Positions 45,860-61,974 of a stretch of DNA of 64,000 nt are shown one piece after another. Each line of letters starts with the position of its first letter. Position 1 is the first letter of the stretch. Source of the stretch: Bacilli bacterium (lineage in GTDB: Bacteria > Bacillota_I > Bacilli_A > RFN20 > CAG-826); NCBI GenBank assembly GCA_017468925.1, contig JAFUHI010000009.1:462162-526161 (forward strand). Direction: 5' to 3'. The notes below the pieces were generated by a model that saw only the letters and a list, made by a program, of their open reading frames with translations, was not told where the DNA came from and searched no databases. The position numbers were made by a program, and so were the translations under genes.

Positions 45860-46878
45860 CTTAGATTCTCCTTTCTTGTCAATTCTTCAAGCAACTCTTT
45901 CTTGCTTATTGAAGCTAAGCAAATGCATTGGTCGCCAGCGCCATAATATATTAGGTATTTGCCATCCTTTTCTACGATGCCTGTAGGGAAAACGCATCCA
46001 CTATAGAAGCCATCAGTTTCGTGATGGAATTCAGGTTCCATTATGAAATTCTTGGTTTTTGCAAGGATTTTGGTCGGATCATTTAAATCTAGAAGCATCG
46101 CGCCGACCCTATAATTCTTATCTTTGGAATCAACCCCGTGATATATGAATAGCCATCCTTTTTCCGTTTTGATTGGGGGGCAGCTTCCTCCGATTTTTTC
46201 GCTTTCCCAGTCTTCCTCTCCCTTGTAGAGAAGCCTTTCTTCCTCTCTCCATTCTAAAAGATCGTTTGAGAAAGAAATCCATATCGCAGGTTTTTCGTTT
46301 GGATATCCTTCTCCACATTTATTCATTGCCCTGGAGATTTTGACGTATTTGCCATTTATTCTTTCAGGGAAGATGATGACATCCCTATCATCATTCCTAG
46401 AGTCTGTGATGCGTCCTAATTTCTTCCAATGTATCAAATCACGGCTAACGGCTAAATGTGTTTCGGTGTCATTGTATATAAGCACTTTTGGTCCGGCTTT
46501 AGGTTGGAAACCAAAATATTTCTTATCTTCTCTCCAATATTGCCCTGGAGCGAAGGGCCTTGAAGCGTACGTTAAGAAATAATAGTCGTCTATTTTGACC
46601 AATCTAGGATCTTCGATTCCCCCTCCATCCGCTCCATTAACGTCTGGGGAGATGAGTGGCTTATCGCTTGCTCTAGTAAAATTAATTCCATCCTCGCTTG
46701 TGGCCAAACCGATATAGATGTAGTGCTCTACATCGTTTCCTGCCGCGCGATAAAGCATGTAATATTTCCCATCTTCATCGTTTTTTATAACTGCCGGATT
46801 CAAGACACAAAGCTCTTCCCATTTGTTTTTGGGATTGGCTCTTAGGACTGGATTGTTTTGGTATTTGTTGAGCTTCAT
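45856..46878 (-). CDS. Glycoside phosphorylase/hydrolase family GH130 (copy 1)
   Basis: A 340-residue five-bladed propeller enzyme without signal peptide. GH130 landmarks: NPVLRANPKNKWEELCVLNPAVI, the YRAAG segment, GGIEDPRLVKI, IIFPERINGKYVKISRAM, GGSCPPIKTEKGWLFIYHGVD and RVGAMLLDL. Members phosphorolyse beta-mannosidic bonds and release alpha-mannose-1-phosphate from mannosylglucose or mannooligosaccharides in the cytosol. The precise substrate cannot be read from sequence. GGAGGAGG precedes the ATG. Together with the copy at 54.5-55.5 kb it is the main reason to call this locus mannan-type. Confidence 0.9.
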   Translation of the reverse strand: MKLNKYQNNPVLRANPKNKWEELCVLNPAVIKNDEDGKYYMLYRAAGNDVEHYIYIGLATSEDGINFTRASDKPLISPDVNGADGGGIEDPRLVKIDDYYFLTYASRPFAPGQYWREDKKYFGFQPKAGPKVLIYNDTETHLAVSRDLIHWKKLGRITDSRNDDRDVIIFPERINGKYVKISRAMNKCGEGYPNEKPAIWISFSNDLLEWREEERLLYKGEEDWESEKIGGSCPPIKTEKGWLFIYHGVDSKDKNYRVGAMLLDLNDPTKILAKTKNFIMEPEFHHETDGFYSGCVFPTGIVEKDGKYLIYYGAGDQCICLASISKKELLEELTRKENLR

Positions 46879-46889
46879 ATATCCTCCTC

Positions 46890-49529
46890 CTATTGAATCG
46901 TCCTTGTTGATAGGTCCGTATAACTCAAGGAATAATCGAACATCAGATTATCGATGTAGAAGTCGTACAATGATGCAGTTGCATCACCTGATTGAACTGC
47001 GCCGAAAGAAATTCTAGAGATGTTCTTTATGTCATTTGCGTCTGGCCTATAAGTTGTGGTGTCCACCGCGACGAAATTATTCAAACCAATCGAATATTCG
47101 GTCCATGATTCGCTGGCATTCGCTACCGTGTATCTATATTGCAAAGTGTTGCTTCCGATTGTGATATAGAGATTGATATAGATAGTCGCTAATCCGTTCG
47201 CTTTGATGGAAACGCGCAACCCTCTTCCGACTACATTTTGATCGAAAGTTGGAGCGCAATAATATGAAATTGATTCTGAATTGCTCTTGTATTGCAGTTT
47301 GGCTGAATGGTTTCCGCCTTCTGAAGAGACTTCATTTGAAAGTTCCTTCTTCTGGTATTCATATGTTCTTCCGTCGAGCCAATAGGAAGATAAATCATCG
47401 CTATCCTCATACCCTTCGAAATCATCCACTAAGGCGATATTGCCATTCATCCTTACGACTCTTTCGATTTCTTGGGCGCTGTATTCGTCTGCTTGGCCGA
47501 ACTTGATGTTATCCAGATAGACGGCGTTGCTGATTGAATACATAGGAAGCGGATTCCCATATATGTCGTAATAGAAGAATTGCAATGATATTCCTATCTT
47601 TATTATGTTTTTGGCGACGATTGGGCTAGGAATTGAGATGTCCTCTTCATTAGCCAAAGTGAAGGAGGAGAAAGGCAAATCATATCTAGTCCACACCCTT
47701 TCTATGTTCCCTAAGGAATATTTATACATTTCGCCAGATACGAGATGGAGATATATAGCCGCATCGGCTGAATAGACACTTACATGGGATAGACGTCTAT
47801 CCGAACTCTTGGTCGAATTGTCTTTCAAATCGATGGAAATGGAAGAGAAAGAAGAAGCGGTTTCGATTAGAAGAGTATAGGTTGCCGCTTCCATATCGCT
47901 CTTGTATTCGAATTGGGCGCAGTTGACGTTTTTGTTCCCGGTTTTGGCGGCGGAACTTATTAACATCTGCTCATCTTTGTTTGCTTCAGTGGTCTCCCAG
48001 ATGAAATAGAGCTCATTGGCGCTTTGGTATTTATCGAAATCCTCAATCATCCCATCGCTTTCGACTAAGCGAGATGTCTCTACTGCGTAATCTGATTTGT
48101 TGACTATTTCAAAATCTTTGAATGAGATGTCACCCGTTCCATACTGGCCCTCTAAGCCAAATTGGAGGTTGATGATGTAATAGAACTGGCGTTTTCCATC
48201 TCCTAGAATATCGCTTTTCATGAATGCGGCAAAAGGGATGACCAATTCTTTGTATTCACCTTCATCTAGCAAGGAGAAGGGGATGCGATATGACCACCTA
48301 TCGGTATCTTCTTCATAGACCCTTATGACCACATTCGTTCCTTTCGATCCGTTGTATCTCACTTTGACTTTTATTGAATCTCCGCCAAAGAAGTAGCGGC
48401 CGACATATATTTTTGCAAAGCCATACCCTGATTGGCCGATTCTTGGTTTGCCCTCGGTGTTGCTATAGTAATTCAATGTCAATTCGTCATTTGTCACAGT
48501 CTTTTCGAATTCATATCCTTCGTTTACCCAAAGGGACTCATCGTATTCAAGATAATTAAGCTTTTCGATGAATCTGTCGCGATAATTATCGAATTTGATG
48601 GCTTTTACATCGGATATTAAGAAAACTCCATCGCCAAATGTCTTCTCGAAGACGACTTCCATGTATTTGATGCGTTCGTAATCGAATGTCTCATTTGCGA
48701 CAGTGACGTCGTTATATCTTTGGATGAAGTCGGTGAACTTAAGAAAGACAGTCTGCTTGGCGTTGTTGCTAATTTGGACTGGGCAATACCAGTATTCGTT
48801 ATCTTTATCGACTAAACGGATAAAGACTGATGCATCTTGCCCAGCGTAATACATATTGAAATATAAAGCGTCGGTGCCGTAGATGCTTTTCTCTATCGTT
48901 TTGGTGACGACAATCCATCCATCGCTTTCGATGATTCCTCTCTTCATGTCTTCGCCTTTGAAGGAGATGACTAAAGATTCTTCATCATTTTCAAAGAAAT
49001 TGGAGTTATCGATTGATATATCGGCGTGCGATCCTAGGCTATGAAGAGTCCAATCGTCAGCATCCCCCAAATCGAATTTGACTTCTTCGACTTCAGGCGC
49101 TTTGTAATAGAAAGAGTAAGTGGAAGTGCTTTGCTTTGATCCATCGTGGTTATAGGCAAACACCCTCCAATAGTAGTAGGTGTTCTGTGTCGAGAAAGAG
49201 GCTTTCACCGCGAAAGATGTGGCGGCTATATTTCTCTCGATATAATAGTCAATGATATCGATATCGCTTATGAAATATTCGCTCGCGCAAATTTCTAAGG
49301 AATAGGTTTCTGCGTTAGAAGAAGCTGTCCAAGAAAATGTTGTTATTTCATCGAGTTCCACCAAATTTCCTGGCGAAACTAGGTCGAAATCGCCTAATTC
49401 CCCAGTCACATAAGAAGAAGAAAATGAATTATCCTCAATCTCATTTTTGTTGATGTTTTTTGTTCCTTCTTGGCAAGAAGCAAGAAGCAAGAGGCTAGTC
49501 AATAATATTACGCTTTTTTTCATATTCAT
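46890..49529 (-). CDS. Multi-module lipoprotein, probably glycan-binding
   Basis: An 879-residue lipoprotein (lipobox LASC). An FN3-like domain at about 50-150 (TTFSWTASSNAETYSLEICAS) is followed by three or four beta-sandwich modules that resemble CBM11/CIA30-like binding domains. The last two modules align with each other: MIEDFDKYQSANELYFIW...AQFEYKSDMEAATYT and LVDDFEGYEDSDDLSSYW...AKLQYKSNSESISYY. No catalytic motif is visible, so a binding role at the membrane is most likely. The first ATG overlaps the upstream stop (ATGA); the ATG at 49523 has better spacing to GAGAGG. Confidence 0.75.
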   Translation of the reverse strand: MNMKKSVILLTSLLLLASCQEGTKNINKNEIEDNSFSSSYVTGELGDFDLVSPGNLVELDEITTFSWTASSNAETYSLEICASEYFISDIDIIDYYIERNIAATSFAVKASFSTQNTYYYWRVFAYNHDGSKQSTSTYSFYYKAPEVEEVKFDLGDADDWTLHSLGSHADISIDNSNFFENDEESLVISFKGEDMKRGIIESDGWIVVTKTIEKSIYGTDALYFNMYYAGQDASVFIRLVDKDNEYWYCPVQISNNAKQTVFLKFTDFIQRYNDVTVANETFDYERIKYMEVVFEKTFGDGVFLISDVKAIKFDNYRDRFIEKLNYLEYDESLWVNEGYEFEKTVTNDELTLNYYSNTEGKPRIGQSGYGFAKIYVGRYFFGGDSIKVKVRYNGSKGTNVVIRVYEEDTDRWSYRIPFSLLDEGEYKELVIPFAAFMKSDILGDGKRQFYYIINLQFGLEGQYGTGDISFKDFEIVNKSDYAVETSRLVESDGMIEDFDKYQSANELYFIWETTEANKDEQMLISSAAKTGNKNVNCAQFEYKSDMEAATYTLLIETASSFSSISIDLKDNSTKSSDRRLSHVSVYSADAAIYLHLVSGEMYKYSLGNIERVWTRYDLPFSSFTLANEEDISIPSPIVAKNIIKIGISLQFFYYDIYGNPLPMYSISNAVYLDNIKFGQADEYSAQEIERVVRMNGNIALVDDFEGYEDSDDLSSYWLDGRTYEYQKKELSNEVSSEGGNHSAKLQYKSNSESISYYCAPTFDQNVVGRGLRVSIKANGLATIYINLYITIGSNTLQYRYTVANASESWTEYSIGLNNFVAVDTTTYRPDANDIKNISRISFGAVQSGDATASLYDFYIDNLMFDYSLSYTDLSTRTIQ

Positions 49530-51040
49530 AACCTCTCATTCGAAACAACGACCGCGCTATTCTGCGGGACATCGATTGTGAACTTCTTATTGAGCGAGCC
49601 CTCTATTTCGTAATTGGGGATAATATATCCGCTTTCATCTAATCGATACGAGGAGCCATTGAAGATATAGACATATAGCTTATCTCCCTCAATCTCATCA
49701 TCGATATAGAAGGTCTTATTGACGGAAGCTAAACCGGCATTTACCGCGACAAAGCCTCCTTGCTTGCCGTCTTGGCTTCTTGTAGCGATGCTTCTAAACG
49801 TCTTATCGAGGTTATTGTCATTCTGCGGTGGGGAATAGATTAGATTCCCTTTCTTTATCATATGGCAAAGCAAAGATGATGAATGGTACCAAGGCCTCAA
49901 CTCTTGCTTGTTGCTAGTGGCCTCCGCCAAAGATGAGAACATGCCCCATTCTTTTGGTGTCATAGTGGTGGCGGTATACATAAAATGCATTGCATCATCA
50001 AAGTCCCAATAAACCACCCCATTGACGCCGGCGGCTAAGCATTGAATTGTGTAATCGACCATTCTTACTGCGTAATTACCAGTTCTTATTGCAGTTTGGC
50101 AATCTAGCAATGTTTTGCCATCTAATAATCCTGCTTCCCAGACGTTTGCCTGTCTTTTTACGCCTAATCCTCCATCGATATCTTTGACTTTCTTGTATAT
50201 CGAATTGATTTGGTCGAACATCTCGCCTCTATCAACGGCGATGTTGGATAGATATAGGTGGAATCCATAATCGCCTACTTGCTCTGGGATGTTTCTAGCG
50301 ATGTTGGTCAAATATTCTTCGGTTCCCGCGTATCCAGTCGTGTCGCCTCCAACAATCGATATGGATTTTAGACCTAGGGAATCGAGCGTCGCTCTAACGT
50401 TTTTAACGCCTTGCTCCCATTTATCATAGGTGTTGTTGTAGTTTTTGGAAGAGCCTCTATTGCCGCTATAATTTGGCTCATTGGAGTTGACGAACCACTT
50501 GATGCAGTCAAATCCTTTTTTGTTAACCAGATAGTCAAGAATATCGCCTGTTATCTTGGCCCAGCGGATATCACTGGTGACTTCTTCCATCATTCCCCAT
50601 ACATCTTCGCCAGAGAGATTGGCGATGACATTCCACGCGCCAAAAGCCACATCTATATTATGTATTTGGCAATATTCGAGTATTTCTATGGTGTTTTTTG
50701 CATATTTGTTGGTGAGGTTATATGTCCAGGTATCATCGTTTTTATCATCCGTTCCTTTGCCATCGAAATTTTGGCAGAACCAATCATATGAGACCATCAA
50801 ACGGATTCTTGCGGGTTTAAGATGATCCATATGGGCGATGATTCTTTCCCATCCGCCTTCGACTATCTTATCCGTATCTTCGTATGTGCCCCATTCAACG
50901 CCTAGTCCCCCAAAAGATTTCTGAACTATATCTTGAGAGGTGAAGGCGATGAAATCCTTTTCAACAGTTCTTGCTTCTTGGCAGGAAAAACAAGTCAAAA
51001 GCCCAATCGTTCCTAAAATTAAGAATTTGCCAGGCTTCAT
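49526..51040 (-). CDS. Lipoprotein glycoside hydrolase of clan GH-A
   Basis: A 504-residue lipoprotein (lipobox CFSC). The mature part has a TIM-barrel start (KSFGGLGVEWGTYEDTD, PARIRLMVSYDWF), the acid/base Glu near 187 in FVNSNEPNYSG and the likely nucleophile Glu near 301 in NVWEAGLLDG. The two Glu at the ends of strands 4 and 7 are characteristic of clan GH-A (GH5, GH26, GH30, GH39, GH113). A small beta domain follows the barrel, as in GH30/GH39. Given the GH130 genes, an extracellular mannanase is a reasonable guess, but the family is not settled. Confidence 0.72.
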   Translation of the reverse strand: MKPGKFLILGTIGLLTCFSCQEARTVEKDFIAFTSQDIVQKSFGGLGVEWGTYEDTDKIVEGGWERIIAHMDHLKPARIRLMVSYDWFCQNFDGKGTDDKNDDTWTYNLTNKYAKNTIEILEYCQIHNIDVAFGAWNVIANLSGEDVWGMMEEVTSDIRWAKITGDILDYLVNKKGFDCIKWFVNSNEPNYSGNRGSSKNYNNTYDKWEQGVKNVRATLDSLGLKSISIVGGDTTGYAGTEEYLTNIARNIPEQVGDYGFHLYLSNIAVDRGEMFDQINSIYKKVKDIDGGLGVKRQANVWEAGLLDGKTLLDCQTAIRTGNYAVRMVDYTIQCLAAGVNGVVYWDFDDAMHFMYTATTMTPKEWGMFSSLAEATSNKQELRPWYHSSSLLCHMIKKGNLIYSPPQNDNNLDKTFRSIATRSQDGKQGGFVAVNAGLASVNKTFYIDDEIEGDKLYVYIFNGSSYRLDESGYIIPNYEIEGSLNKKFTIDVPQNSAVVVSNERL

Positions 51041-51041
51041 T

Positions 51042-52625
51042 CTAATTTCCTCCTAAAACCGTGTTGATTTCATCCAATACTTGATCCCAAGTGCCGTTGC
51101 TTATCGCCCTATCGGATTTGTAGTCATTGATGGATTTGATTTTGTCAAAGACGTATTTGGTGACGGTCTTCAAGGCGTTTGTTCTTAGGGTTCCAGAATG
51201 CAGCGCCTTCTTTTCGGAAGTGAGCCACATGACTTCTGGCGATTCTTTTAAAACCCTTAGTTCGCCATCCGCTAAAGCGGTTTTCATTTGGGCATCCCAA
51301 TCATTTAGATATTGGACGACGCTTTTCTCCGTCATTGGGTCGTACTCCAATGTGTCATAGCCTAAAGAAAGCATGTATCGGAGGTATTTCGCCCCGTTGA
51401 CTCTATCGATAAGCGATCCATCGTCGTTATACCAACGGTCTCTTACAATCTCCACTTTGCCCGTCTCATCTTTCGTATAGTCATATCCTTCGAATCCATA
51501 GATGGCAAAGTTCGTTCCACTTTCTGAAAGAAGCCAGTCATATAAATCCAAGATCTTGTTTAGCTTCATCTCAGAGATATTGTTGTTGATGAAAGTCATG
51601 GAGAACCAGTTGTCGGTGCCTTCCAAAGCGTATTTGCCATCTGGTCCTTTGATTTTCATGATGGCGGTCGCATCATCGACATTGAAATCCTTGTCATTGA
51701 CGTTGGTGCGTTTTAGCTGGATTCTTAAAGCCTCCATATTGGAATATGAGAGGTTTTCGTAGAGCACACCGCATTGATTCGAATAATATTTCTCGTTCAT
51801 CTTTCCTTCGGTTGCCGTATATTGGTCGGATGAATAATATTTGTCGGTTATGGCGAATTCTTTTGATTTCTCCAATCCCAAGATGTATTCATCGGTAGAG
51901 TAGTTGTTGACGTATTTGCGCTCGGTTTCGTCATAGGCAAAGCAGTGGGGGACCTGCTTATAGAAATTGGTGATTGAAGGGAAACCCCATTCGACATCGC
52001 CTAAGGCAAATTTCCTTTTTCCCGACAATTCCCTGTTGAATTTGTCTAGAAGCGTGTTGAATTGCTCCCATGTGTATTCATCGTTTTCCTGGTAAACCCC
52101 ATATTGCTTGGCCCAGTCTCTTCTATATAGATAAGTGAATGGGGAGAAGCTCGTGCTAAAATCGGTCGTGTTTTTGGCGATAGGGATGCCATAAAGATGT
52201 CCATCAAGCTTTAAAGCTTCGATGTTAGATGTGTTATCGATCATCCTCTTTAGATTGGGCCAATTTGATAAATCATCCGGAAGTTGTTTGATAACTTTAT
52301 CTTCCGCCCAATATTTGTAATATGAAACGAAGTTATAAGAATCGATATTCGCATGGAATACGTCTGGGGAATTGCCCGCTAAAACATGGCCATTTACCTG
52401 CGTTGTCCAATCTTGCCAGGAATACGGCTCAAGTTTGAAGGACAAACCGAACATATCCTCGACTTCCTTGATATAGCTGTCGCCTCCGCTATAGTTATCG
52501 AAATAGAGGTTGCGGAACGATACCTTGAGTTTATCTCCGTCGTATTCATCCGCCCCATTGTTGTTTTTGCATCCGAATAGGCACATTGATGCAACCGCTC
52601 CTAATAGAATAATCTTTGTTTTCAT
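51042..52625 (-). CDS. Sugar ABC transporter solute-binding lipoprotein (LplA/YtcQ type)
   Basis: A 527-residue lipoprotein (lipobox LFGC). It belongs to the long solute-binding type paired with LplB/LplC permeases: NSPDVFHANIDS, GHLYGIPIAKN, YLYRRDWAKQYGV and an aromatic-rich cleft. It brings oligosaccharides to the permeases encoded just upstream. AAAGGAGGAA lies before the ATG. Confidence 0.93.
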   Translation of the reverse strand: MKTKIILLGAVASMCLFGCKNNNGADEYDGDKLKVSFRNLYFDNYSGGDSYIKEVEDMFGLSFKLEPYSWQDWTTQVNGHVLAGNSPDVFHANIDSYNFVSYYKYWAEDKVIKQLPDDLSNWPNLKRMIDNTSNIEALKLDGHLYGIPIAKNTTDFSTSFSPFTYLYRRDWAKQYGVYQENDEYTWEQFNTLLDKFNRELSGKRKFALGDVEWGFPSITNFYKQVPHCFAYDETERKYVNNYSTDEYILGLEKSKEFAITDKYYSSDQYTATEGKMNEKYYSNQCGVLYENLSYSNMEALRIQLKRTNVNDKDFNVDDATAIMKIKGPDGKYALEGTDNWFSMTFINNNISEMKLNKILDLYDWLLSESGTNFAIYGFEGYDYTKDETGKVEIVRDRWYNDDGSLIDRVNGAKYLRYMLSLGYDTLEYDPMTEKSVVQYLNDWDAQMKTALADGELRVLKESPEVMWLTSEKKALHSGTLRTNALKTVTKYVFDKIKSINDYKSDRAISNGTWDQVLDEINTVLGGN

Positions 52626-52644
52626 AGATGATTCCTCCTTTTTC

Positions 52645-53550
52645 TCATCCTTTTATGGCACCGACGACAATGCCTTTAACGAAATACCTTTGCAAGAAAG
52701 GATAGAAGCACATCATCGGAATAATCGTGAAGAAAATTGCCGCCATCTTTATTGATTCGTTGTTTATGGCGCCTGGGTTGACGCTAGGTATCATTGAGCT
52801 TTCTTTGACGATGATGCTTTGCAAGACCTGCTGCAATGTCCTGATGGATGGGTCTTGGTTGAAAAGCATGCCGTTATACCATGAATTCCAGTTGCCGACC
52901 GCGAAGAATAGCCCAACTGTAGCAAGCATTGGCAAAGAAAGAGGCAAGAATATTTTCGCGAATATCTGGATGTCGTTTGCCCCGTCGATTCTCGCGCTTT
53001 CCTCCAATTCTTTTGGCAATGAAGCGAAATAATTCCTCATCAAAAGCATATTGAACGTATCTATCGCGCCCGGGATTATCATGACCGCGATGGTGTTTGT
53101 CATGCCTAATGATTTAATCAATATGTAGTAGGGGATAAGGCCTCCACCAAAGAACATCGTGACGATGATCATATTCATAACGAAATTCTTTCCAAACCAT
53201 TTATTCCTCGATAAAGCGTACCCCGTAATAACGGTGAAGAATAATTGATAGGCCGTTCCTCCAAATAGAAGGATCAATGTGATCTTAAGCCCATTCCATA
53301 TCTGGCTGTTTTCGAAAACGCTTTGGTAGGCGTCGAATGTGATGCGGGGAGTCCATAAGAGGAAGGGGCTTTCCGCATATATATCCTGAGGGGTGATGGA
53401 AATGATGAAAAGATAATAGAATGGGAAGATGATCGCTAAGGCATAAATCAGCAAAATCACCAGCAAAACCACGTCGAATTTGCCAAATTTGCTGGAAGGA
53501 CCACGCTTATCTTTTTTATTTAACGGAAGCTTTTCTAATTTCGCGCCCAT
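52645..53550 (-). CDS. Sugar ABC transporter permease (LplC/YtcP type)
   Basis: A 301-residue permease with six predicted helices. The EAA loop reads LEESARIDGANDIQIFAKIFLPLSLPM. The ending FVKGIVVGAIKG is typical for the YtcP/LplC side of CUT1 importers. It starts at the base where the partner permease gene ends (53550). Confidence 0.95.
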   Translation of the reverse strand: MGAKLEKLPLNKKDKRGPSSKFGKFDVVLLVILLIYALAIIFPFYYLFIISITPQDIYAESPFLLWTPRITFDAYQSVFENSQIWNGLKITLILLFGGTAYQLFFTVITGYALSRNKWFGKNFVMNMIIVTMFFGGGLIPYYILIKSLGMTNTIAVMIIPGAIDTFNMLLMRNYFASLPKELEESARIDGANDIQIFAKIFLPLSLPMLATVGLFFAVGNWNSWYNGMLFNQDPSIRTLQQVLQSIIVKESSMIPSVNPGAINNESIKMAAIFFTIIPMMCFYPFLQRYFVKGIVVGAIKG

Positions 53551-54503
53551 TATATGATCCCCCTTTCTCCGCAGGCTTTGGCGATTCTATCGGTGGTTAT
53601 GACCAAGACGAAACCGACAAGCGATTTGAATAACCCTAATGCGGTGGTCACACCCTCCCTAAATTGATGCGATACGAATGTGGTGTTGTAGATATATGTG
53701 TCGATGATTTCCGAAGCTTCTTCAACCATATCGTTCGACATATTGAATATTTGCTCAAATCCGGCTGAAAGAACACCTCCGACCGACATGATTAATAGCA
53801 ATATCGCTGTGGCTTTGATGCCAGGGAGAGTGATATGCCATATTTTCTGTAATCTAGTCGCCCCGTCTATATCCGCAGCCTCGTACAAATCAGTGGAGAT
53901 TCCCGCCATTGTGGCGATGTAGATGATTGAGCCCCAACCAGCCTCTTTCCAGATGTCGCTGCCGAAGATGAGGCCAAGGAATAGATGGTCTTCGCTCAAG
54001 AATCCGACCGTATTCCCTCCCATCCCGCGGATGATTTGGTTTATCGAACCATTATCCGAGAACATCAAGATGAACAATGATGCGACTATGACCCAAGAGA
54101 GGAAGTGAGGGAAAGTAACGATTATCTGCACCGCTTTCTTGAAGAAGCGGAGTCTTATTTCATTGATAAGAAGGGCTACAGTCACCGCCGAAACGAAGGC
54201 GATTATGACTTTGGTTGTGCCGATGAAAATCGTATTGAGGAACACCCTCCAGAAATCTTGGAGATTGAATATCGTTTCGAAGTTCTTCAATCCGATCCAA
54301 TGGTTGAAAACCGATCCCATGATGCCTTCGCTTGATGAGAAGTCCGTAAAGGCGATGAGGACGCCATACATTGGGACGTAGCAAAACAGAATATAGTAAA
54401 CGATGGCGGGTATTATCATCATGATCAAAAAGCGAGACCGGTAAATATATTTACCTAGCGACTTGTCTTTCTTTTGCTTTTTCTCAATCAGAATCCCGTC
54501 CAT
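53550..54503 (-). CDS. Sugar ABC transporter permease (LplB/YteP type)
   Basis: A 317-residue permease with six predicted helices and an EAA loop YEAADIDGATRLQKIWHITLPGI. The IIPAIVYYILFCYVPMYGVLIAF segment near the start is characteristic of the LplB/YteP group, whose substrates are mostly plant-derived oligosaccharides. Partner of the LplC-type permease. Confidence 0.95.
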   Translation of the reverse strand: MDGILIEKKQKKDKSLGKYIYRSRFLIMMIIPAIVYYILFCYVPMYGVLIAFTDFSSSEGIMGSVFNHWIGLKNFETIFNLQDFWRVFLNTIFIGTTKVIIAFVSAVTVALLINEIRLRFFKKAVQIIVTFPHFLSWVIVASLFILMFSDNGSINQIIRGMGGNTVGFLSEDHLFLGLIFGSDIWKEAGWGSIIYIATMAGISTDLYEAADIDGATRLQKIWHITLPGIKATAILLLIMSVGGVLSAGFEQIFNMSNDMVEEASEIIDTYIYNTTFVSHQFREGVTTALGLFKSLVGFVLVITTDRIAKACGERGII

Positions 54504-54505
54504 TT

Positions 54506-55474
54506 TTATCTAGCGTTCTCCTTTATGAATTTGACTAGTCTATCGATTGTGCTGAAAGCCAATCCTGTATAGGTGTCTGCGCAGCCATAATATATGGCTA
54601 TTCTTCCGCTTTCCTTGTCAACGATCGTGGAAGTGGGGAAGATGACATTGCTTACAAATCCTACCGTCTCATAATCTTCTTCTGGGGTAAGCAAGTAGTC
54701 TTTGCAGCGATATTTGACAACCGAAGGGTCGTTTTTATCCAAAATCATTCCTCCGATTGAGTAGACATATCCGTTGCATGTGCGGTTGACTCCATGCGTC
54801 AATAAAAGCCACCCATCTTCTATTTCTATTGGGGTTGGGCCTGGCCCTATTTTTAAAGCGCACCACCATTCATAGCCGCTTCTAGCCACAAGCTTATGAC
54901 GTCCCCAGTGAATCAAATCATCGCTTTCGGAGATGAAGATATCGCCGAAAGGGGTGTGTCCTAGGTCGCTTGGCCTAGAAAGCATGTAGTAGTGGCCATT
55001 GATTTTCCTTGGGAAAAGAACTCCATTGCGGTTGCATGGCAAGAATGGATAATCGAATTTGATGAATTTCTTGAAGTCGGTGGTGTAGGCAATGGATATT
55101 GCGGGCCCGCAGAAATCATCGCACCAGACGATATAATATTTATCCTCAAGTGGAATCAATCTTGGATCGTACTGATATCCAGTTTCCGGCAAGATATTTC
55201 CTTTTTCGTCTTCGAATATGATTCGCTTATCGCTTATGTCGAAATTGACGCCATCTTTTGAGCAACCTACGTAGAGGTGGGGGATGTCATCATTCCCGTC
55301 TCCTCTAAAAATGCCGATGAATCCATCGCCATATTGGATGACTGAGCTATTGAAGACCCTCGAGGCTTTCTTTGTCGGGTGTCTTTTGATAACTGGGTTT
55401 CCGGAGAATCTCCAAATAGGTCCTTCAAAACCTTCTGGGCATTCTTCGTAAGGGAATACTTGTTCTTTACTCAT
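54506..55474 (-). CDS. Glycoside phosphorylase/hydrolase family GH130 (copy 2)
   Basis: A 322-residue cytosolic protein: WRFSGNPVIKRHPTKKASRVFNSSVI, the FRGDG segment, YQYDPRLIPLEDKYY, GVLFPRKINGHYYMLSRPSD, KIGPGPTPIEIEDGWLLLTHGV and IYYGCADTYTGLAFS. This is the type of mannooligosaccharide or mannosyl-N-acetylglucosamine phosphorylases and is clearly different from copy 1, so the two enzymes may act on different chain ends or lengths. The start overlaps the LacI gene stop by 8 bases; the ribosome-binding site is weak, so coupling is likely. Confidence 0.89.
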   Translation of the reverse strand: MSKEQVFPYEECPEGFEGPIWRFSGNPVIKRHPTKKASRVFNSSVIQYGDGFIGIFRGDGNDDIPHLYVGCSKDGVNFDISDKRIIFEDEKGNILPETGYQYDPRLIPLEDKYYIVWCDDFCGPAISIAYTTDFKKFIKFDYPFLPCNRNGVLFPRKINGHYYMLSRPSDLGHTPFGDIFISESDDLIHWGRHKLVARSGYEWWCALKIGPGPTPIEIEDGWLLLTHGVNRTCNGYVYSIGGMILDKNDPSVVKYRCKDYLLTPEEDYETVGFVSNVIFPTSTIVDKESGRIAIYYGCADTYTGLAFSTIDRLVKFIKENAR

Positions 55475-56501
55475 TATTTTTACCTATGGCTCTAATCGAG
55501 CTCCTTTCTATGAATTCGCTGCGGATGATAAATTCCGAATATTGTGGTTTGTCTTCTTGCGTAAGACGGAGAATGTAGTGGCCTATCTCATCGCCTATTT
55601 GTTCTCTAGGCACATTGAAGGTGGATAAAGGTGGTCTAGCGTATTCGCCGATTTTCACATTGTCGAAACCGATTATCGAATAATCTTCTGGCACCCTTTT
55701 GCCCATCTTGTCCAATACTTTGTATACGTTGAGGGCGATGATGTCGTTAGCGCAGACAATCGCAGTAATATCCTTATTTTTCTCTAACGTGCTTCTTAAT
55801 AACTCATTGTCGCTATATTGAAGATCGCTGTTATCGAAATTGATGATTATTCCTCTGATTTTCTTGTCCTTGACGCTGTCGATGCAAGCGGCAAACCCTT
55901 CTCTTCTTTCCCTAAATGACATCGAGTGGGAGTCGCTCCCATAGAAGCAAAGGCATTTGTGGCCGTAATCAATCAGTCTTTGAGTAACCTCATACATCGA
56001 TGTATAGTTGGAGAATTTAATCTGTGTCACGCCTGCTGGATGCATGTATTTGGGGTCGACTTCGATTATTGGTTTGCCAAAATTCTTCAATTCCTTGACC
56101 ACGGCATCCGGATTGACGTGGAGGATGATGAAAGCGATGCAAGGATTGTTTTTTAATTCCCTTAATTTCTGGACATCGATTCTATCGGCGTCGAAAACAA
56201 AATACTCGAGGTTTATTGATGACCTATTTAATGTCGCGTAAAGGTTTTTGATGATTGGCTGCCAGAAATCCTCTTTCATAAGAACGCTGGTGGAGACGAT
56301 TAAAACAACGGATGTTTTAGGCTTATTTTTCACTCTTAGGCGAGAGAAGTCATAGCCGAGCTCGACGGCTTTTTTCATTATCTCGTTGCGGGTTTCATCC
56401 CCGACGTTGTATTTGCCCGCCAAAGCACGGGAGACTAAACCTTTAGTGACCCCGCATTCCTTCGCTATATCATCAAGTCTTACTTTTTTGCCGTTTGGCA
56501 T
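55467..56501 (-). CDS. LacI-family transcriptional regulator
   Basis: A 344-residue protein. The helix-turn-helix VRLDDIAKECGVTKGLVSRALAGKYNVGDETRNEIMKKAVELGYD is followed by a periplasmic-binding-protein-like sensor (SVVLIVST..., AIVCANDIIALNVYKVLDKMGKRVPEDYSIIGFDN). It probably represses the glycan operon in which it lies and is released by a mannooligosaccharide or mannose derivative. GGGGGA before the ATG. A 15-bp palindrome in the promoter before 58614 is a candidate binding site. Confidence 0.93.
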   Translation of the reverse strand: MPNGKKVRLDDIAKECGVTKGLVSRALAGKYNVGDETRNEIMKKAVELGYDFSRLRVKNKPKTSVVLIVSTSVLMKEDFWQPIIKNLYATLNRSSINLEYFVFDADRIDVQKLRELKNNPCIAFIILHVNPDAVVKELKNFGKPIIEVDPKYMHPAGVTQIKFSNYTSMYEVTQRLIDYGHKCLCFYGSDSHSMSFRERREGFAACIDSVKDKKIRGIIINFDNSDLQYSDNELLRSTLEKNKDITAIVCANDIIALNVYKVLDKMGKRVPEDYSIIGFDNVKIGEYARPPLSTFNVPREQIGDEIGHYILRLTQEDKPQYSEFIIRSEFIERSSIRAIGKNNE

Positions 56502-56502
56502 C

Positions 56503-58614
56503 TTAATTCCCCCAAGGCGATATGTCGTTATAAATCGTTATGTCATCGATGAAGAAGAAGGCATTGCTCACCAAATAATCTTTAACTGGTATGATGCTGA
56601 AACCATAGTAGACGGTATTTTGATTGAGTTCGATTGTGTATTCGCACCAATCACTGTCTTTGACGATCACTATCCCTTCGGTTAACAAGCTTGGTCCTCC
56701 TTGCCCTTGGTTGGTTGAATTCACCTGAGGAGCATAGAAGATTCTTATTTTCAAGGAGATGTCTTTTGCTGTAGAACCTTTAGCGAAGAAGGAGAAATAT
56801 TTTCCACTTCCCATTGCTTTTCCGCTTCCCTTGTATAATCCCCAGGAAGTGAAGCGCATATCCATGTCTTTGTTGTGTTTGATTTTGGCGCAACCATCGA
56901 CTGAATTGCCATCGGTTTTGACTAAATCTAGATAGTCGGATGAGCCCATAAGCTCCCAGCCGCTTCCACCCATTGGGGAGGTGCCATTTCCAGAGAAGTA
57001 GTCGCAATAATACGCCGCTCTTAATCCGCTTACTTCAGTTTCCGCGTGGTTTTTATCATATCCAACTCCGGTTGACTCATAATCGAATGAATCAACTGGG
57101 GTGTAGGCTCCCATTCTAAAGCCGGTAAATTTAGATGATAGAGAACCGCTGACACTATCCAAAACGAAGGTGTTTCCACCATCTTCTGAATGGGTTATTA
57201 GGTCAAAATCCATTCCGTTCTCGCTTGAAATTATTCTAGCTTGATTATCGCTTTCCTTGCTTACTGTGACCGGGATTATAGTATTCTCGCCTTCTTGGAT
57301 GAGGACCATTGTCCAATCATTCCCGTTTTTGTTCAAATATCCTCCTACTCCGGTTTCGGTGCTTATCGCGTAATTGTCTTTTATCGCGGCCATCACAACG
57401 ATGCTAGTAGGATTGCCTGTATTATGGAGTTTGATGTCATCTATCCAAATGTATGATTTGGAGCCAGTGCTATCGCTTGGAGCCATGCATCTCATTTGGA
57501 AAACGTTGAAATATGGAAGCATATGGCCTAAAGATGGGATGGTGTAGCCTGCACTATCCAACATCGCCAAAACCGTTCTTACTTCCATTCTTTGCTGGTT
57601 GTAGTCAACTCTCCAATTGCTATCGTTTAAGGAGATATCGTATTTCGACCAGCCTTCAGGGACATGCTCTATTTGATAAATGATATATACGCCTGCGAGG
57701 TCAATTCCTCCGACTATGACATGCTCATTTATTTGGAATGATAGAGATATCCTATTTGTTCCATCGCCTTTGATGAAGAAGGAGAAGGTGTCGAAATAAT
57801 TCTCAAAACTCACCTCTTTCTCATATTTGAACCATTCACCATGGTGCCAGAATTGCAGTTTTGCGCATTTGCCTTCGCTTATCCCTTCGTTGGTATCGTC
57901 CAAGGTGATGGAGGCAGTGCTTTTCACCCATTCGTTATTGTGGTTTTTCTCGATGCTATAATTCTCTTTCAAATCAGTATCCGATGGAGCGGAAGCATCT
58001 TCCAAAATTACCGTGGCGTCAGCGTATGGGGAGACGACAATATGTTTTTCTATGGTTCCACCAAAGAAGAAGGTGGATGTTTCTTCGTTAAACCCTTCTT
58101 CGACTTTGAAGGTGTAGATTCCGCTTCTATCGATTTGGAGGAAATTGCCTTCTACAGCAAAGTATTCGCCTTCGTCGATTTTGGCTTTTAGTTGACCAGA
58201 GGCCTCGCCCCAGGTGATTTTGTTTTCTTGGAAAGACAGATTTTCTAATTTCGTCAAATCGCTTGAATAAGTGAAAGGATTAGAGAATTCGCTATCCATT
58301 TCATGATTAGAAGCGACTGCTTTAACTTTGACTGTGTATTCTCCTACGGCGTCTATGAATTGGTGGGATGTCCCCTCAACAGGTTCTTCCTCGTTTACGT
58401 AGATTTCGTAAGATGATGCTCCAGGAACTTCATCCCAGGTCAATCCAGTTCTGGCATCGTTTAGTCTTAAGACAGGGGAATCGATCTTTCCTCCGATGTC
58501 TCCGCTGAAAGTAGAGGTGGTTGCGGGCGTTACCTCCTGAGGCGTGCAACTTGCCATAGATAACACAAAAATCGACAAAAAGAGCCTTGCTTTTCCGTTT
58601 TTAATATTTTTCAT
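56503..58614 (-). CDS. Lipoprotein with FN3-like, CBM-like and a shared C-terminal module
   Basis: A 703-residue lipoprotein (lipobox MASC). The N-terminal part has FN3-like strands (RTGLTWDEVPGASSYEIYVNEEEP). A CBM-like module follows at about 225-395 (KCAKLQFWHHGEWFKYEKEVSFENY...YIWIDDIKLHNTG). The C-terminal 190 residues (from FDYESTGVGYDKNH to FFFIDDITIYND) are clearly homologous to the centre of the divergent secreted protein at 59.7-62.0 kb. No catalytic motif seen. Likely binds the target glycan. A promoter with -10 GATAAT six bases before the ATG precedes it; it seems to begin the main operon. Confidence 0.76.
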   Translation of the reverse strand: MKNIKNGKARLFLSIFVLSMASCTPQEVTPATTSTFSGDIGGKIDSPVLRLNDARTGLTWDEVPGASSYEIYVNEEEPVEGTSHQFIDAVGEYTVKVKAVASNHEMDSEFSNPFTYSSDLTKLENLSFQENKITWGEASGQLKAKIDEGEYFAVEGNFLQIDRSGIYTFKVEEGFNEETSTFFFGGTIEKHIVVSPYADATVILEDASAPSDTDLKENYSIEKNHNNEWVKSTASITLDDTNEGISEGKCAKLQFWHHGEWFKYEKEVSFENYFDTFSFFIKGDGTNRISLSFQINEHVIVGGIDLAGVYIIYQIEHVPEGWSKYDISLNDSNWRVDYNQQRMEVRTVLAMLDSAGYTIPSLGHMLPYFNVFQMRCMAPSDSTGSKSYIWIDDIKLHNTGNPTSIVVMAAIKDNYAISTETGVGGYLNKNGNDWTMVLIQEGENTIIPVTVSKESDNQARIISSENGMDFDLITHSEDGGNTFVLDSVSGSLSSKFTGFRMGAYTPVDSFDYESTGVGYDKNHAETEVSGLRAAYYCDYFSGNGTSPMGGSGWELMGSSDYLDLVKTDGNSVDGCAKIKHNKDMDMRFTSWGLYKGSGKAMGSGKYFSFFAKGSTAKDISLKIRIFYAPQVNSTNQGQGGPSLLTEGIVIVKDSDWCEYTIELNQNTVYYGFSIIPVKDYLVSNAFFFIDDITIYNDISPWGN

Positions 58615-58650
58615 ACTTCCATTATCAATGGATTGGGCACTTTAATTCAA
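58612..58650 (-). promoter_or_regulatory. Promoter of the mannan-like operon with a 15-bp palindrome
   Basis: On the minus strand TTGAAT (58645-58650), 18-base spacer, GATAAT (58621-58626), six bases, ATG. TCCATTATCAATGGA (58618-58632) is a perfect inverted repeat covering the -10, so a repressor, for instance the LacI protein of the locus, could act here. Confidence 0.6.
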
Positions 58651-58655
58651 ATAAA

Positions 58656-58712
58656 TTTGGTAAACAAAAAATTATTTCGGTAAACATTCGGCTAAGTTTA
58701 CTCAGAGTTTAC
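58656..58712. repeat. GTTTAC/GTAAAC box cluster upstream of the operon promoter
   Basis: TTTGGTAAACA (58656-58666) and TTCGGTAAACA (58676-58686) are direct repeats 20 bp apart. GTTTAC occurs at 58696-58701 and 58707-58712, 11 bp apart and in opposite orientation to the first pair. All four lie upstream of the -35 of the operon, where activator sites are expected. Confidence 0.6.
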
Positions 58713-58724
58713 AAAATTAAATGG

Positions 58725-59486
58725 TTATAAATTGTGATTGATGTTCTTTGAAATAACTTTCCTTGCGACATCCACAAGGATATCAAAAGTCTCATCATCG
58801 ATTGGTCCAGTGACATCATCGTAACTGTATCCAGATGGCTTAAATCCTTCTAAATTTATATTGTTTCCCAGGAAAAACATCGTCCAGATCGTGCTCGCCA
58901 AAGTTCTTCCTATTTCGTTTAAATGAAACCCATCCCTGTTGAGATTGTCTCCTAGGGTTTTTCTTGCTTCTTTTACGGCATTTCCTACGGGAATAATATA
59001 TTTAATCCCGGTTTTTTCACTGACAGTTTGGTAGGCGTTCTCTATATCCTTATCCATCCTATTTTGGTCCAATGGATTGCTGCCATAGAGCCAATGTGAA
59101 TATGTTTTGGCGTAGCTCCAGGTTTCATGCAGCACAAAGGTAGCCTTGCTCATTTCTCTAACCTTATTTAACAATAGGGTTAACTCAGGGAAATAAGAGG
59201 TGGGATCGCCTGATTTATGCGATACCTGCTGGAATGTTATATAATCCCATTCTTTTAACATTATCCCTTCTTTCAAACTGATATTGCATTCAGGGGTTCT
59301 ATTGCCGTTTATGTAGAGTTCATAGTCTTTCTTATCGTTTTGGATATTTTCCCAATGCAGTGAAATAGGGCATCCTCCTATATACAAAACATAAATATCA
59401 ACGTCAAATCCCGCGTGTTTTGCCTCTTGATGGACGTATGTCGCTGCATCCACCGCGAACGAATTTCCTACACATAAAACTTTCAT
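58725..59486 (-). CDS. SGNH-like hydrolase of the DUF4886 family
   Basis: A 253-residue protein without signal peptide. The landmarks are VLCVGNSFAVDA (nucleophile Ser in GNS), LYIGGCPISLHW, FQQVSHKSGDP, HETWSYAKTYSHWLYGSNPLDQNRM and NRDGFHLNEIGR (Asp/His). These are the DUF4886 pattern, an SGNH relative found in glycan-utilisation loci and thought to be an esterase. The first in-frame ATG at 59492 overlaps a -10 TAAAAT at 59493-59498; the ATG at 59486 is exactly six bases from that element and begins the family's normal MKVLCVGNS, so it is preferred. Confidence 0.84.
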   Translation of the reverse strand: MKVLCVGNSFAVDAATYVHQEAKHAGFDVDIYVLYIGGCPISLHWENIQNDKKDYELYINGNRTPECNISLKEGIMLKEWDYITFQQVSHKSGDPTSYFPELTLLLNKVREMSKATFVLHETWSYAKTYSHWLYGSNPLDQNRMDKDIENAYQTVSEKTGIKYIIPVGNAVKEARKTLGDNLNRDGFHLNEIGRTLASTIWTMFFLGNNINLEGFKPSGYSYDDVTGPIDDETFDILVDVARKVISKNINHNL

Positions 59487-59492
59487 AACCAT

Positions 59493-59498
59493 ATTTTA
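59493..59498 (-). promoter_or_regulatory. -10 element six bases before the DUF4886 gene ATG
   Basis: On the minus strand TAAAAT, then ATGGTT, then ATG at 59486. No Shine-Dalgarno is visible. This spacing equals that of several other genes in the window. Confidence 0.5.
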
Positions 59499-59568
59499 AT
59501 ACCTATAAATATAGTTTCGCATAAGGTTTTGGAGATGTTTTTCCTAAATATAAATATTTACTGATTTT

Positions 59569-59589
59569 GTTTACTTGATGTTTACCAAA
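59569..59589. repeat. GTTTAC direct repeat with 11-bp period in the divergent promoter region
   Basis: GTTTAC at 59569-59574 and 59580-59585, period 11, the same arrangement as at 58696-58712. The 11-mer TGTTTACCAAA (59579-59589) is the exact reverse complement of TTTGGTAAACA at 58656-58666. Confidence 0.6.
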
Positions 59590-59685
59590 AAACCATTTTG
59601 TTGACAAAGATTTTCTTCATCAAGACGTTTTTCTAAACAAAAATTAAATTAATAAATAAGGATTAAAATCCAAAGGAGACGAATT

Positions 59686-61974
59686 ATGAAAAAGAAGTTT
59701 CTTTTGATGTCTGGAGCGGCCATTCTATCAATCGGCGCGACTGCCGTTATGGCCAATGCCTTTGTGCCGGATATCTTAAAACCAACATTCATCAACGCGG
59801 AATTGGCGGATTCAAAGCTGAGCCTTAATTCAACAAACGTCCCAGTTGAGGTCACCTCCTCGTTCCAAAATCATGTTGAAGCATCGGTCTCAACAGATCT
59901 AGGCAACCCAGTCAATCTCCATTATGTCTTAGCAAGAAGCGCAAGCGACGTTCATGTTGAACTAGCAAGTAGAGGCATGATCTATAACTATAACAACGAT
60001 GGTTATAAGAATGGTAAAATCACCGGAATCAAAAAGATAACGGCATCATTCTCTGGCGTTTTATATGTTGAGACCGCGACCAGCAGAGATGGCGATTTCT
60101 TCGGAGACAAAGTTGCCCTCACAAGCGGAACCCCCTATGTTTTAGGCGACGAAAGAACGTTCTTCAGAATCATTGCAGGAGATGGTGGTGCATCCATCAC
60201 CAACCTCGACATTGATTTTAGCTGTATTGAAAGCGATGGAATATCTTTAGATGATCTAAACGGTTTTTATACTGGAGTAGGCGACGACGGATATACATAT
60301 TCCCTTGAGATCACCGACGGAGATGCGACAATCAGAACGCTAGACCAAGCATCCCCAAAGACATTTGAAGGCACTGTTGCCTTGGGTGGCGATTCCGAAG
60401 TCCTATGCGATTTCGATATGTCAGGATATGATGTCCATTATCATTCAATCGCTGATAGCAAAGTTCATAAATTAACCTGCGATACCATCACGGATGATGT
60501 CGGTGGTGCTGTGGCCTCAAGCGTTGCCAGAATCGACTTTGAAAGAGTCTATAACGTAGAAGACTTTGAATCATATTCGGCGACTGGTGCCGGATACGAT
60601 AAAAACAACAGCCAATATACAACAACTGGATTAAGAAGCGCATATTACGCCGACTATTACGCAGGAAGCGGCAGCTCCCCAATTGGAGGAAGCAGCTGGA
60701 ATCTTATGGGTTCCACCGATTATTTGAATTTCAACTCATCCAAAGGCCATAACGGCAGCAAAGTCGGTGTTTTTAAAGGGAACAACAACTCACTTCGTTA
60801 TATCCAAATGAAAGGGCTATACGGCACGGATGATTATGTAGGAAAAGGAACCACATTGTCATTCTGGGCAAGAGGCGCTTATTCCAACTCAGGCTTAACA
60901 ACCAATTCAACCGCCGATGCTTCTTTAAGCGTCTATGCCTTTTCTGAAAAAGCCTTGACCCCATCCAATCAGCAAACGGCTAGAACCGCAGCTACATTCA
61001 CTATCCCAGCAGGAAGCGATTGGACAAGATATACGATGACGCTTGATTCATCCAAAACCTATTATTCCATCGGTTTCTTCTGCAAGCAAAGCGCCACAAC
61101 GTATCTCCCAATCGATGACGTCCAAATCTATACCGCCGATCCGTATGCCGAATATGAGGACCCAACCCCAACTGAATATGCATTTGGAGGGGATTTTGTG
61201 GGGAATATCACCGCAGCAGGCAACTCATTGCTTGTCAATGTTGGCTTTGGAAATAATGGAGAAGTGGCCGCTAAAGCAGCGGGATCATCCATGACTCCAA
61301 CAGGCTATACATACGATTCTTCCACCAATGAATTCTCCATCACGACAACAGGAAGTTATAGCGGATTGACTTATGGCACAATAACCGGCAAATTCGATTC
61401 CACGAACAACAAACTCTACAACGTCGGATTGGATGGCACTATATCGTCTTATATCACAGATAACGGCAGCATCGAACTATCGAGACCTGGATATTATTAC
61501 GAGTGCGAAGATGACACCAGCACGATGATATCGATTTTCAAGAGAAGATATTGCAGAACCGGAGTCGATGGAGGCTGGGTCGTAGACACCTCCAATGGCG
61601 ATAGAGTGTCTCAAGACAAGACAAATGTGCTATCCGGTTCCTCCTCGCTTAAACTCCGTGCCTTAAACGTTACCGGAAGAGTGGGACTTGCCCTCAATAA
61701 CGACATCGCGGAAAAGAATTACGGCAATATCGGCTTCTGGGCCTACAACCCAACAGAAAGCGATGTGACAATTAGATTATTCATCTACAAAGCTGCATCT
61801 TTAGGCAGCAACGCCGAAATCGGATCGGTCACTGCCAAGGCCGGTGGATGGAGCTATTGCTCATGCGGATTCGGAAGCAAATTCACTGTCGGGACCGACA
61901 CATTGTATAACTTCCAACTCTATATTGAGCCATACATGACCGCGATGAGCTTCGATAACCTCGCCTTGTTCTAA
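59686..61974 (+). CDS. Large secreted protein sharing a module with the neighbouring lipoprotein
   Basis: A 762-residue protein with signal peptide (cleavage probably after about 35). It has an N-terminal beta domain, then from about 290 a module of about 170 residues (FESYSATGAGYDKNNSQYTTT to LPIDDVQIYTA) that is homologous to the C-terminal module of the lipoprotein at 56.5-58.6 kb, and a last CBM-like domain (GSSSLKLRALNVTGRVGLALNND...MSFDNLALF). There is no membrane anchor or sorting tail, so it may be released or held by binding. AAAGGAG precedes the ATG. It is divergent from the DUF4886 gene, with GTTTAC boxes between. Confidence 0.76.
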   Translation: MKKKFLLMSGAAILSIGATAVMANAFVPDILKPTFINAELADSKLSLNSTNVPVEVTSSFQNHVEASVSTDLGNPVNLHYVLARSASDVHVELASRGMIYNYNNDGYKNGKITGIKKITASFSGVLYVETATSRDGDFFGDKVALTSGTPYVLGDERTFFRIIAGDGGASITNLDIDFSCIESDGISLDDLNGFYTGVGDDGYTYSLEITDGDATIRTLDQASPKTFEGTVALGGDSEVLCDFDMSGYDVHYHSIADSKVHKLTCDTITDDVGGAVASSVARIDFERVYNVEDFESYSATGAGYDKNNSQYTTTGLRSAYYADYYAGSGSSPIGGSSWNLMGSTDYLNFNSSKGHNGSKVGVFKGNNNSLRYIQMKGLYGTDDYVGKGTTLSFWARGAYSNSGLTTNSTADASLSVYAFSEKALTPSNQQTARTAATFTIPAGSDWTRYTMTLDSSKTYYSIGFFCKQSATTYLPIDDVQIYTADPYAEYEDPTPTEYAFGGDFVGNITAAGNSLLVNVGFGNNGEVAAKAAGSSMTPTGYTYDSSTNEFSITTTGSYSGLTYGTITGKFDSTNNKLYNVGLDGTISSYITDNGSIELSRPGYYYECEDDTSTMISIFKRRYCRTGVDGGWVVDTSNGDRVSQDKTNVLSGSSSLKLRALNVTGRVGLALNNDIAEKNYGNIGFWAYNPTESDVTIRLFIYKAASLGSNAEIGSVTAKAGGWSYCSCGFGSKFTVGTDTLYNFQLYIEPYMTAMSFDNLALF

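Follow-up and report, generated by a model that had tools for sequence, protein, structure and literature searches.

A CBM-fold module shared by a lipoprotein and a secreted protein beside a mannoside locus of uncultured Bacilli, with a probable sugar-binding role

What is the module that two neighbouring, divergently transcribed genes of a Bacilli bacterium have in common, and for what purpose would one organism keep it both on a lipoprotein and on a released protein? The question is raised by a stretch of 64,000 nucleotides (positions 462,162 to 526,161 of contig JAFUHI010000009.1, assembly GCA_017468925.1), here called the window, in which an original prediction, made from the letters of the DNA, had noted a shared set of motifs in the lipoprotein, P0001, and the secreted protein, P0002. 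We report a computational analysis of this module, of its relatives and of the locus in which it lies. The module is probably a non-catalytic carbohydrate-binding domain and the two proteins the surface-tethered and the released binder of an acetylated mannoside glycan, a reading to which we assign a probability of roughly 0.62.

The two copies are homologous over their whole length, from residue 505 to 703 of the lipoprotein and from 288 to 488 of the secreted protein, and a BLASTP comparison of the two proteins gives a single strong segment (484-695 against 268-482; 32% identity, 50% positives, 88 bits, E 4e-22), the remaining segments being noise. All of the predicted motifs were found where they had been placed and align in the order given, and the similarity, which might have dissolved in a proper alignment, was kept throughout; the size alone had been set slightly too low, at 170-190 residues rather than about 200. 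Chance low-complexity similarity is ruled out by this E value together with the alignment of the 44 members of the family (A3). In that alignment Y10, G14, W51, R84 and D190 (module numbering) are invariant and E8, G28, R30, G47, G93, W159, Y172, Y173 and G174 nearly so, while the mean column identity is 39%, with large divergence outside these few residues. The hallmark of the family, GxGYDxN...GLRAAYYxDYY, lies between the first strands, in the segment between E8 and W51. Here the module has some 30 residues more than CBM4-type domains (CBM, carbohydrate-binding module), counted from the first glutamate to the first tryptophan; this extra segment is conserved and rich in aromatic residues, and it may hold the ligand site. 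We also take E8 and D190 to stand at the positions that usually hold the structural calcium of CBM4-type modules.

An AlphaFold2 model based on A3 is a confident beta-sandwich of the jelly-roll type, with a predicted local distance difference test (pLDDT) score of 95.8 and a predicted template modelling (pTM) score of 0.90. By VIA-align its nearest neighbour is a CBM4-2 (Z 12.1, root-mean-square deviation 2.8 Å over 143 residues), and CBM11 (Z 11.5), CBM29 with bound mannohexaose (Z 11.3) and the CBM of a Bacillus mannanase (1wky; Z 10.8) are also close; the Foldseek matches include CBM16, one of them a mannopentaose complex, and CBM61, MAM, cleaved adhesin and CIA30 domains are structurally close by one or other of the two programs. 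The likeness to CBM4, CBM11, CBM16 and CBM29, of which CBM16 and CBM29 are represented in the PDB by manno-oligosaccharide complexes among others, covers 127-149 residues of the jelly-roll at Z 10-12, but the identity is only 9-19%, the module carries its insertion of about 30 residues and the scores of the window copies stay beneath every Pfam model.

Neither window copy has a meaningful match in Pfam, in NCBIfam or among the PDB sequences. Neither protein matches CBM_4_9 (PF02018) in Pfam, which 2 of the 44 homologues match weakly (best E 8e-5); CBM27 (PF09212) leaves the module unmatched in Pfam, one homologue reaching E 0.079; and for CBM11 (PF03425) the module is likewise unmatched, the weak CBM_11 match falling elsewhere, in residues 274-350 of the lipoprotein (19.6 bits against a cut-off of 27). 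The choice-of-anchor J model (choice_anch_J, NF038128) gives no match in the window copies and a weak one in 15 of the 44 homologues; when 20 members were scanned singly, one passed its cut-off of 30 bits, at 31.3, and the others lay below. MAM is matched weakly by 13 of the 44. Choice-of-anchor J, cleaved adhesin and MAM domains therefore resemble the module in fold and, for some members, weakly in sequence, but differ in that the window copies give no match to them. We conclude that the module is a divergent branch of the known CBM4/CBM11/choice-of-anchor-J/MAM jelly-roll superfamily and, because a confident jelly-roll near the CBMs is combined with window copies that match no Pfam, NCBIfam or PDB sequence, that it is a new sequence family of its own on a known fold. 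A beta-sandwich of no recognised CBM family had been predicted: the beta-sandwich is borne out by AlphaFold2, Foldseek and VIA-align, and the absence from Pfam and NCBIfam by the searches, although the fold itself is not new. Of the checks proposed with that prediction, the modelled structure is confident and its neighbours are of CBM type, and the Pfam profiles left the window copies unmatched and drew weak matches from some homologues.

Do the two proteins place this module where a glycan binder would be expected? P0001 has the lipobox, the Ig-like stalk (by inspection), the C-terminal module and the locus position of a surface glycan-binding protein of a mannan locus; its two FN3/Ig-like stretches, at about residues 44-195, were recognised by inspection rather than by a family match, and its CBM11-like jelly roll occupies about 196-400. 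P0002 has a plain signal peptide and, on checking its sequence, neither an LPxTG motif nor a C-terminal membrane helix, which agrees with the predicted division into one membrane-bound and one apparently released copy. Directly before the module each protein also carries a further beta-domain, here called X, which matches no Pfam family and by hhalign is homologous among the groups of lipoprotein, secreted and tandem type (89.9-97.4%, E 1.7e-6 to 1.6e-11, against 15% or less for control pairs). Because this domain of about 90 residues precedes the module in both proteins, the unit that they share is nearer to 290 residues. The module is, in addition, distantly related to the CBM11-like jelly roll of P0001 (hhalign 96.5%) and to the last jelly roll of P0002 (93%). 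In the loci of relatives, an SGNH/DUF4886-type open reading frame (ORF) of 1045 residues (L023 17835-20000 and L024) has a C-terminal end resembling that last jelly roll, and because this protein ends similarly the second jelly roll of P0002 may also be a shared binding domain. The N-terminal beta-domain of P0002 (residues 40-185; 59803-60240, plus strand; ITGIKKITASFSG...FFRIIAGDGGASITNLDI) is of a type that, by eye, also opens further large secreted proteins encoded in the loci of relatives, such as the 1045-residue SGNH protein and one of 1236 residues.

How old is the pair, and how widely is the module spread? Seeded with the two copies, the searches found it first in 9 of 97 close genomes and, once extended to the order, in 30 of 279; a single family accounts for 29 of these carriers, and the remaining one falls in a different family. 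Among about 790 genomes sampled from the class and phylum only two carriers reappeared, both already known, and none lay outside the order; neither plasmid records nor viral contigs hold relatives of the module, and a phage or plasmid origin was rejected accordingly. The named relatives are uncultured metagenome-assembled genomes recorded as Erysipelotrichaceae, Bacillales or Bacilli and in one case as Christensenella; several come from the rumen, the reticulum or the omasum. The source bacterium is one of the gut, probably of the rumen. Its own genome (an assembly 79.6% complete) holds these two copies only, and in other genera a tandem pair of modules occurs within one lipoprotein. A maximum-likelihood tree places the 11 secreted-type copies, the window's included, on one branch (100/96) and the second tandem copies on another (100/96). 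Because its grouping follows position and protein type and not genome, the two window copies are ancient paralogues, from old lineages shared across genera; a tandem or recent local duplication is ruled out for the same reason.

The setting of the pair points to mannosides (Table 1). Outward from the lipoprotein gene the locus runs through a LacI regulator, a GH130 (GH, glycoside hydrolase family), two permeases, a solute-binding lipoprotein, a hydrolase that we call GHx, a CBM/CIA30-type lipoprotein, a second GH130 and an SGNH lipoprotein, an order conserved in carriers across several genera and in a second family. Of the 30 lipoprotein-type ORFs, 25 have the LacI gene next to follow; three of the other five end at or near a contig edge, in one case the gene of the secreted module protein intervenes, and in one GH130 comes immediately next. 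The locus, GHx included, is present in 28 of the 30 module genomes, and GHx occurs in 30 of the 279 genomes, 28 of them carriers (hypergeometric p 8e-34, which is indicative only, the genomes being related and not independent). A phosphomannomutase (PMM) is encoded after P0002, and in relatives the genes beside the locus include those of a ManA-like isomerase, a ROK kinase and an esterase-like protein with 'VISGQSNAVG', named by inspection. The mannan type of locus that had been proposed is supported; xylan finds no support among the sugar-processing genes of the locus. The two GH130 phosphorylases of this one locus are of different type, the nearest enzymes acting on beta-1,4- and on beta-1,2-mannosides, respectively, and their matches to mannoside phosphorylases span E 1e-123 to 1e-51. 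A large lipoprotein of several jelly-roll domains (46890-49529, minus strand; CIA30 match of 42.4 bits), conserved in the locus, is probably a further glycan-binding protein.

Both module genes had been placed under GTTTAC boxes, and four such boxes do lie within 53 base pairs upstream of the lipoprotein gene and two upstream of the secreted-protein gene. The window contains GTTTACnnnnnGTTTAC just two times, once upstream of each gene, and GTTTAC-N5-GTTTAC is confined within the window to these two regions; counted across the entire window, GTTTAC is no commoner than expected (16 found, 15.9 expected), and only the upstream clustering stands out. Across the family no 6-mer is more enriched than GTAAAC/GTTTAC in the 300 base pairs upstream of module genes (39 of 44, against 92 of 563 other genes; p 3e-23, relatedness ignored). 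Because at least two boxes precede 35 of the 44 module genes and essentially none the downstream operon genes, they mark the operon promoter before the lipoprotein and a separate one before the secreted protein. In relatives some PMM and SASA/CE6-like esterase genes are preceded by boxes too, and together with the module genes these would make up a small putative regulon, for which the LacI protein of the locus is the obvious candidate regulator. A perfect GTAAACGTTTAC palindrome is absent, the real layout being GTAAAC-N10-GTTTAC and GTTTAC-N5-GTTTAC.

Table 1. Coordinates of the module, its proteins and the surrounding features (positions in the window)
Feature	Position	Strand	Basis or content
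Shared CBM-fold module, copy 1	56506..57102	-	lipoprotein residues 505-703; BLASTP to copy 2, 44-member family
Shared CBM-fold module, copy 2	60547..61149	+	secreted-protein residues 288-488; BLASTP, AlphaFold2 model, CBM4/11/16/29 fold match
Lipoprotein P0001, 703 residues	56503..58614	-	lipobox LSMASC; FN3/Ig-like stretches, CBM11-like jelly roll, X domain, C-terminal module
Secreted protein P0002, 762 residues	59686..61974	+	signal peptide, N-terminal beta-domain, X domain, module, small beta-domain, jelly roll ~600-762
X beta-domain (~90-100 residues) directly before copy 1	57106..57411	-	profile-profile match to other groups; no Pfam family
X beta-domain (~90-100 residues) directly before copy 2	60241..60546	+	profile-profile match to other groups; no Pfam family
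Operator-like boxes upstream of lipoprotein	58660..58712		GTAAAC(58660) GTAAAC(58680)-N10-GTTTAC(58696)-N5-GTTTAC(58707)
GTTTAC-N5-GTTTAC upstream of secreted protein	59569..59585	+	
DUF4886 SGNH-type esterase, between the two module genes	58725..59492	-	family match
LacI-type regulator	55467..56501	-	Pfam LacI/Peripla_BP; next after module lipoprotein in nearly all carriers
GH130, nearest beta-1,4-mannooligosaccharide phosphorylases	54506..55474	-	TM1225 E 1.6e-123, UHGB_MP E 8e-105
Sugar ABC transporter (solute-binding lipoprotein, two permeases)	51042..54503	-	family matches, synteny
GHx, GH30-fold (clan GH-A) hydrolase lipoprotein	49526..51040	-	fold match, conserved residues, co-occurrence
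GH130, nearest 1,2-beta-oligomannan/beta-1,2-mannobiose phosphorylases	45856..46878	-	1,2-beta-oligomannan phosphorylase E 1.8e-55

How might such a system work? At the far end of the FN3/Ig-like and CBM11-like stalk of the lipoprotein, the module would for that reason be displayed on the cell surface, and P0002 would be secreted with its module and the second jelly roll behind it. Both proteins would catch the same mannose-containing and probably acetylated glycan, perhaps a β-1,4- or a β-1,2-mannan, and hold it near the cell-surface GHx and SGNH esterases; the products would be taken up by the ABC transporter and then phosphorolysed by the two GH130 enzymes in the cytoplasm. GHx matches no sequence in Pfam, NCBIfam or the PDB, but its fold is that of GH30 (Z 33), and its invariant N187-E188-P189 and W301-E302 correspond to the catalytic Asn-Glu-Pro and Trp-Glu of clan GH-A; it appears the likeliest polymer-cleaving enzyme of the locus and may represent a new family of mannan-active hydrolases. 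The surface glycan-binding-protein principle has been described for CBM112 of the Bacteroides mannan loci, likewise a new mannan CBM family found C-terminally on Ig-stalk surface glycan-binding proteins, though that family, whose BcWH2_CBM has two conserved tryptophans, has been described chiefly in Bacteroidota and mostly inside GH26 (PMC13357471); the comparison with our module is by its published description. The mannan loci of Roseburia intestinalis share the LacI regulator, ABC transporter, two GH130, phosphomutase and acetyl esterases and have, like the binders predicted here, extracellular CBMs, which recruit mannan; Roseburia, however, uses a GH26 with CBM27 and CBM23, whereas here no GH26 is present and separate predicted binding proteins stand with a GH30-fold hydrolase (PMC6385246). 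The fuller proposal, that the module is a new carbohydrate-binding family whose extra segment is the ligand site, in a Bacilli-specific mannoside system that opens its polymer by the GH30-fold hydrolase and not by a known mannanase family, is one that we hold tentatively, at somewhat less than even odds.

For sugar binding speak the nearest solved folds, which are sugar-binding modules, the weak matches of homologues to CBM_4_9, MAM, CBM27 and choice_anch_J and the finding of a compact non-catalytic domain with a CBM fold, as CAZy understands the term. The synteny with the LacI, GH130 and transporter genes, the co-occurrence with GHx, the shared upstream boxes and the matches of the GH130 pair to mannoside phosphorylases speak for the same reading. 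Several points weigh against it. Strictly, the CBMs of CAZy are parts of enzymes, and neither P0001 nor P0002 has a catalytic family by Pfam or NCBIfam, though both are encoded beside enzymes. The families that usually open mannans are absent from the ten carriers tested (no GH26, GH92 or GH76, no GH113 over the cut-off, GH5 mostly absent). The same fold also serves non-sugar roles, with MAM, CIA30 and gingipain adhesin domains among the matches. A rival reading takes the module for an adhesin-type domain (MAM, cleaved adhesin or choice-of-anchor J) that binds a protein or cell, its position in the locus reflecting attachment to plant particles or partner microbes. Gingipain cleaved-adhesin domains do head the Foldseek list, and the weak choice_anch_J and MAM matches lie in the same direction; yet CBM modules fit equally well or better by VIA-align, and the shared upstream boxes, together with the nearly one-to-one pairing of the module with a locus for mannoside degradation, make this reading improbable.

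A binder of some non-classical glycan in place of beta-1,4-mannan, for instance beta-1,2-mannan or a beta-mannose-containing glycan of fungal or host origin, seems rather unlikely. One GH130 of the locus is nearest to a 1,2-beta-oligomannan phosphorylase (NF052550 E 3e-74, under its cut-off), Thermoanaerobacter has paired GH130 beta-1,2-mannoside phosphorylases (PMC4264767), and the absence from the ten carriers of GH26, and of any GH113 that passes its cut-off, would suit such a substrate, whereas the other GH130 finds its best matches among beta-1,4-mannooligosaccharide phosphorylases (E 1e-105 to 1e-123), and the several esterase-like genes and the relatives from the rumen fit an acetylated plant mannan. 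That the module is a ligand-free spacer, a structural filler retained in the stalk, would agree with the strong divergence of its members outside a few residues, but the five invariant residues, the conserved aromatic-rich segment and the retention of separate long-lived lineages in both proteins make it very improbable.

On the reading that we prefer, of a glycan-binding module, cheap tests are opened of which mannan it binds and of whether the neighbouring GH30-fold protein is a new mannan-active enzyme. The domain family is a true, well-bounded and lineage-restricted one, with a known fold and a probable sugar-binding role, and it is tied to a conserved mannoside locus that, in the ten carriers, lacks the GH26, GH92, GH76 and over-cut-off GH113 enzymes. 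To the proteins of uncultured gut Bacilli it adds a family of domains, probably sugar-binding, which the standard libraries leave without annotation and which is found almost only beside one conserved set of genes for mannose-containing plant or fungal sugars.

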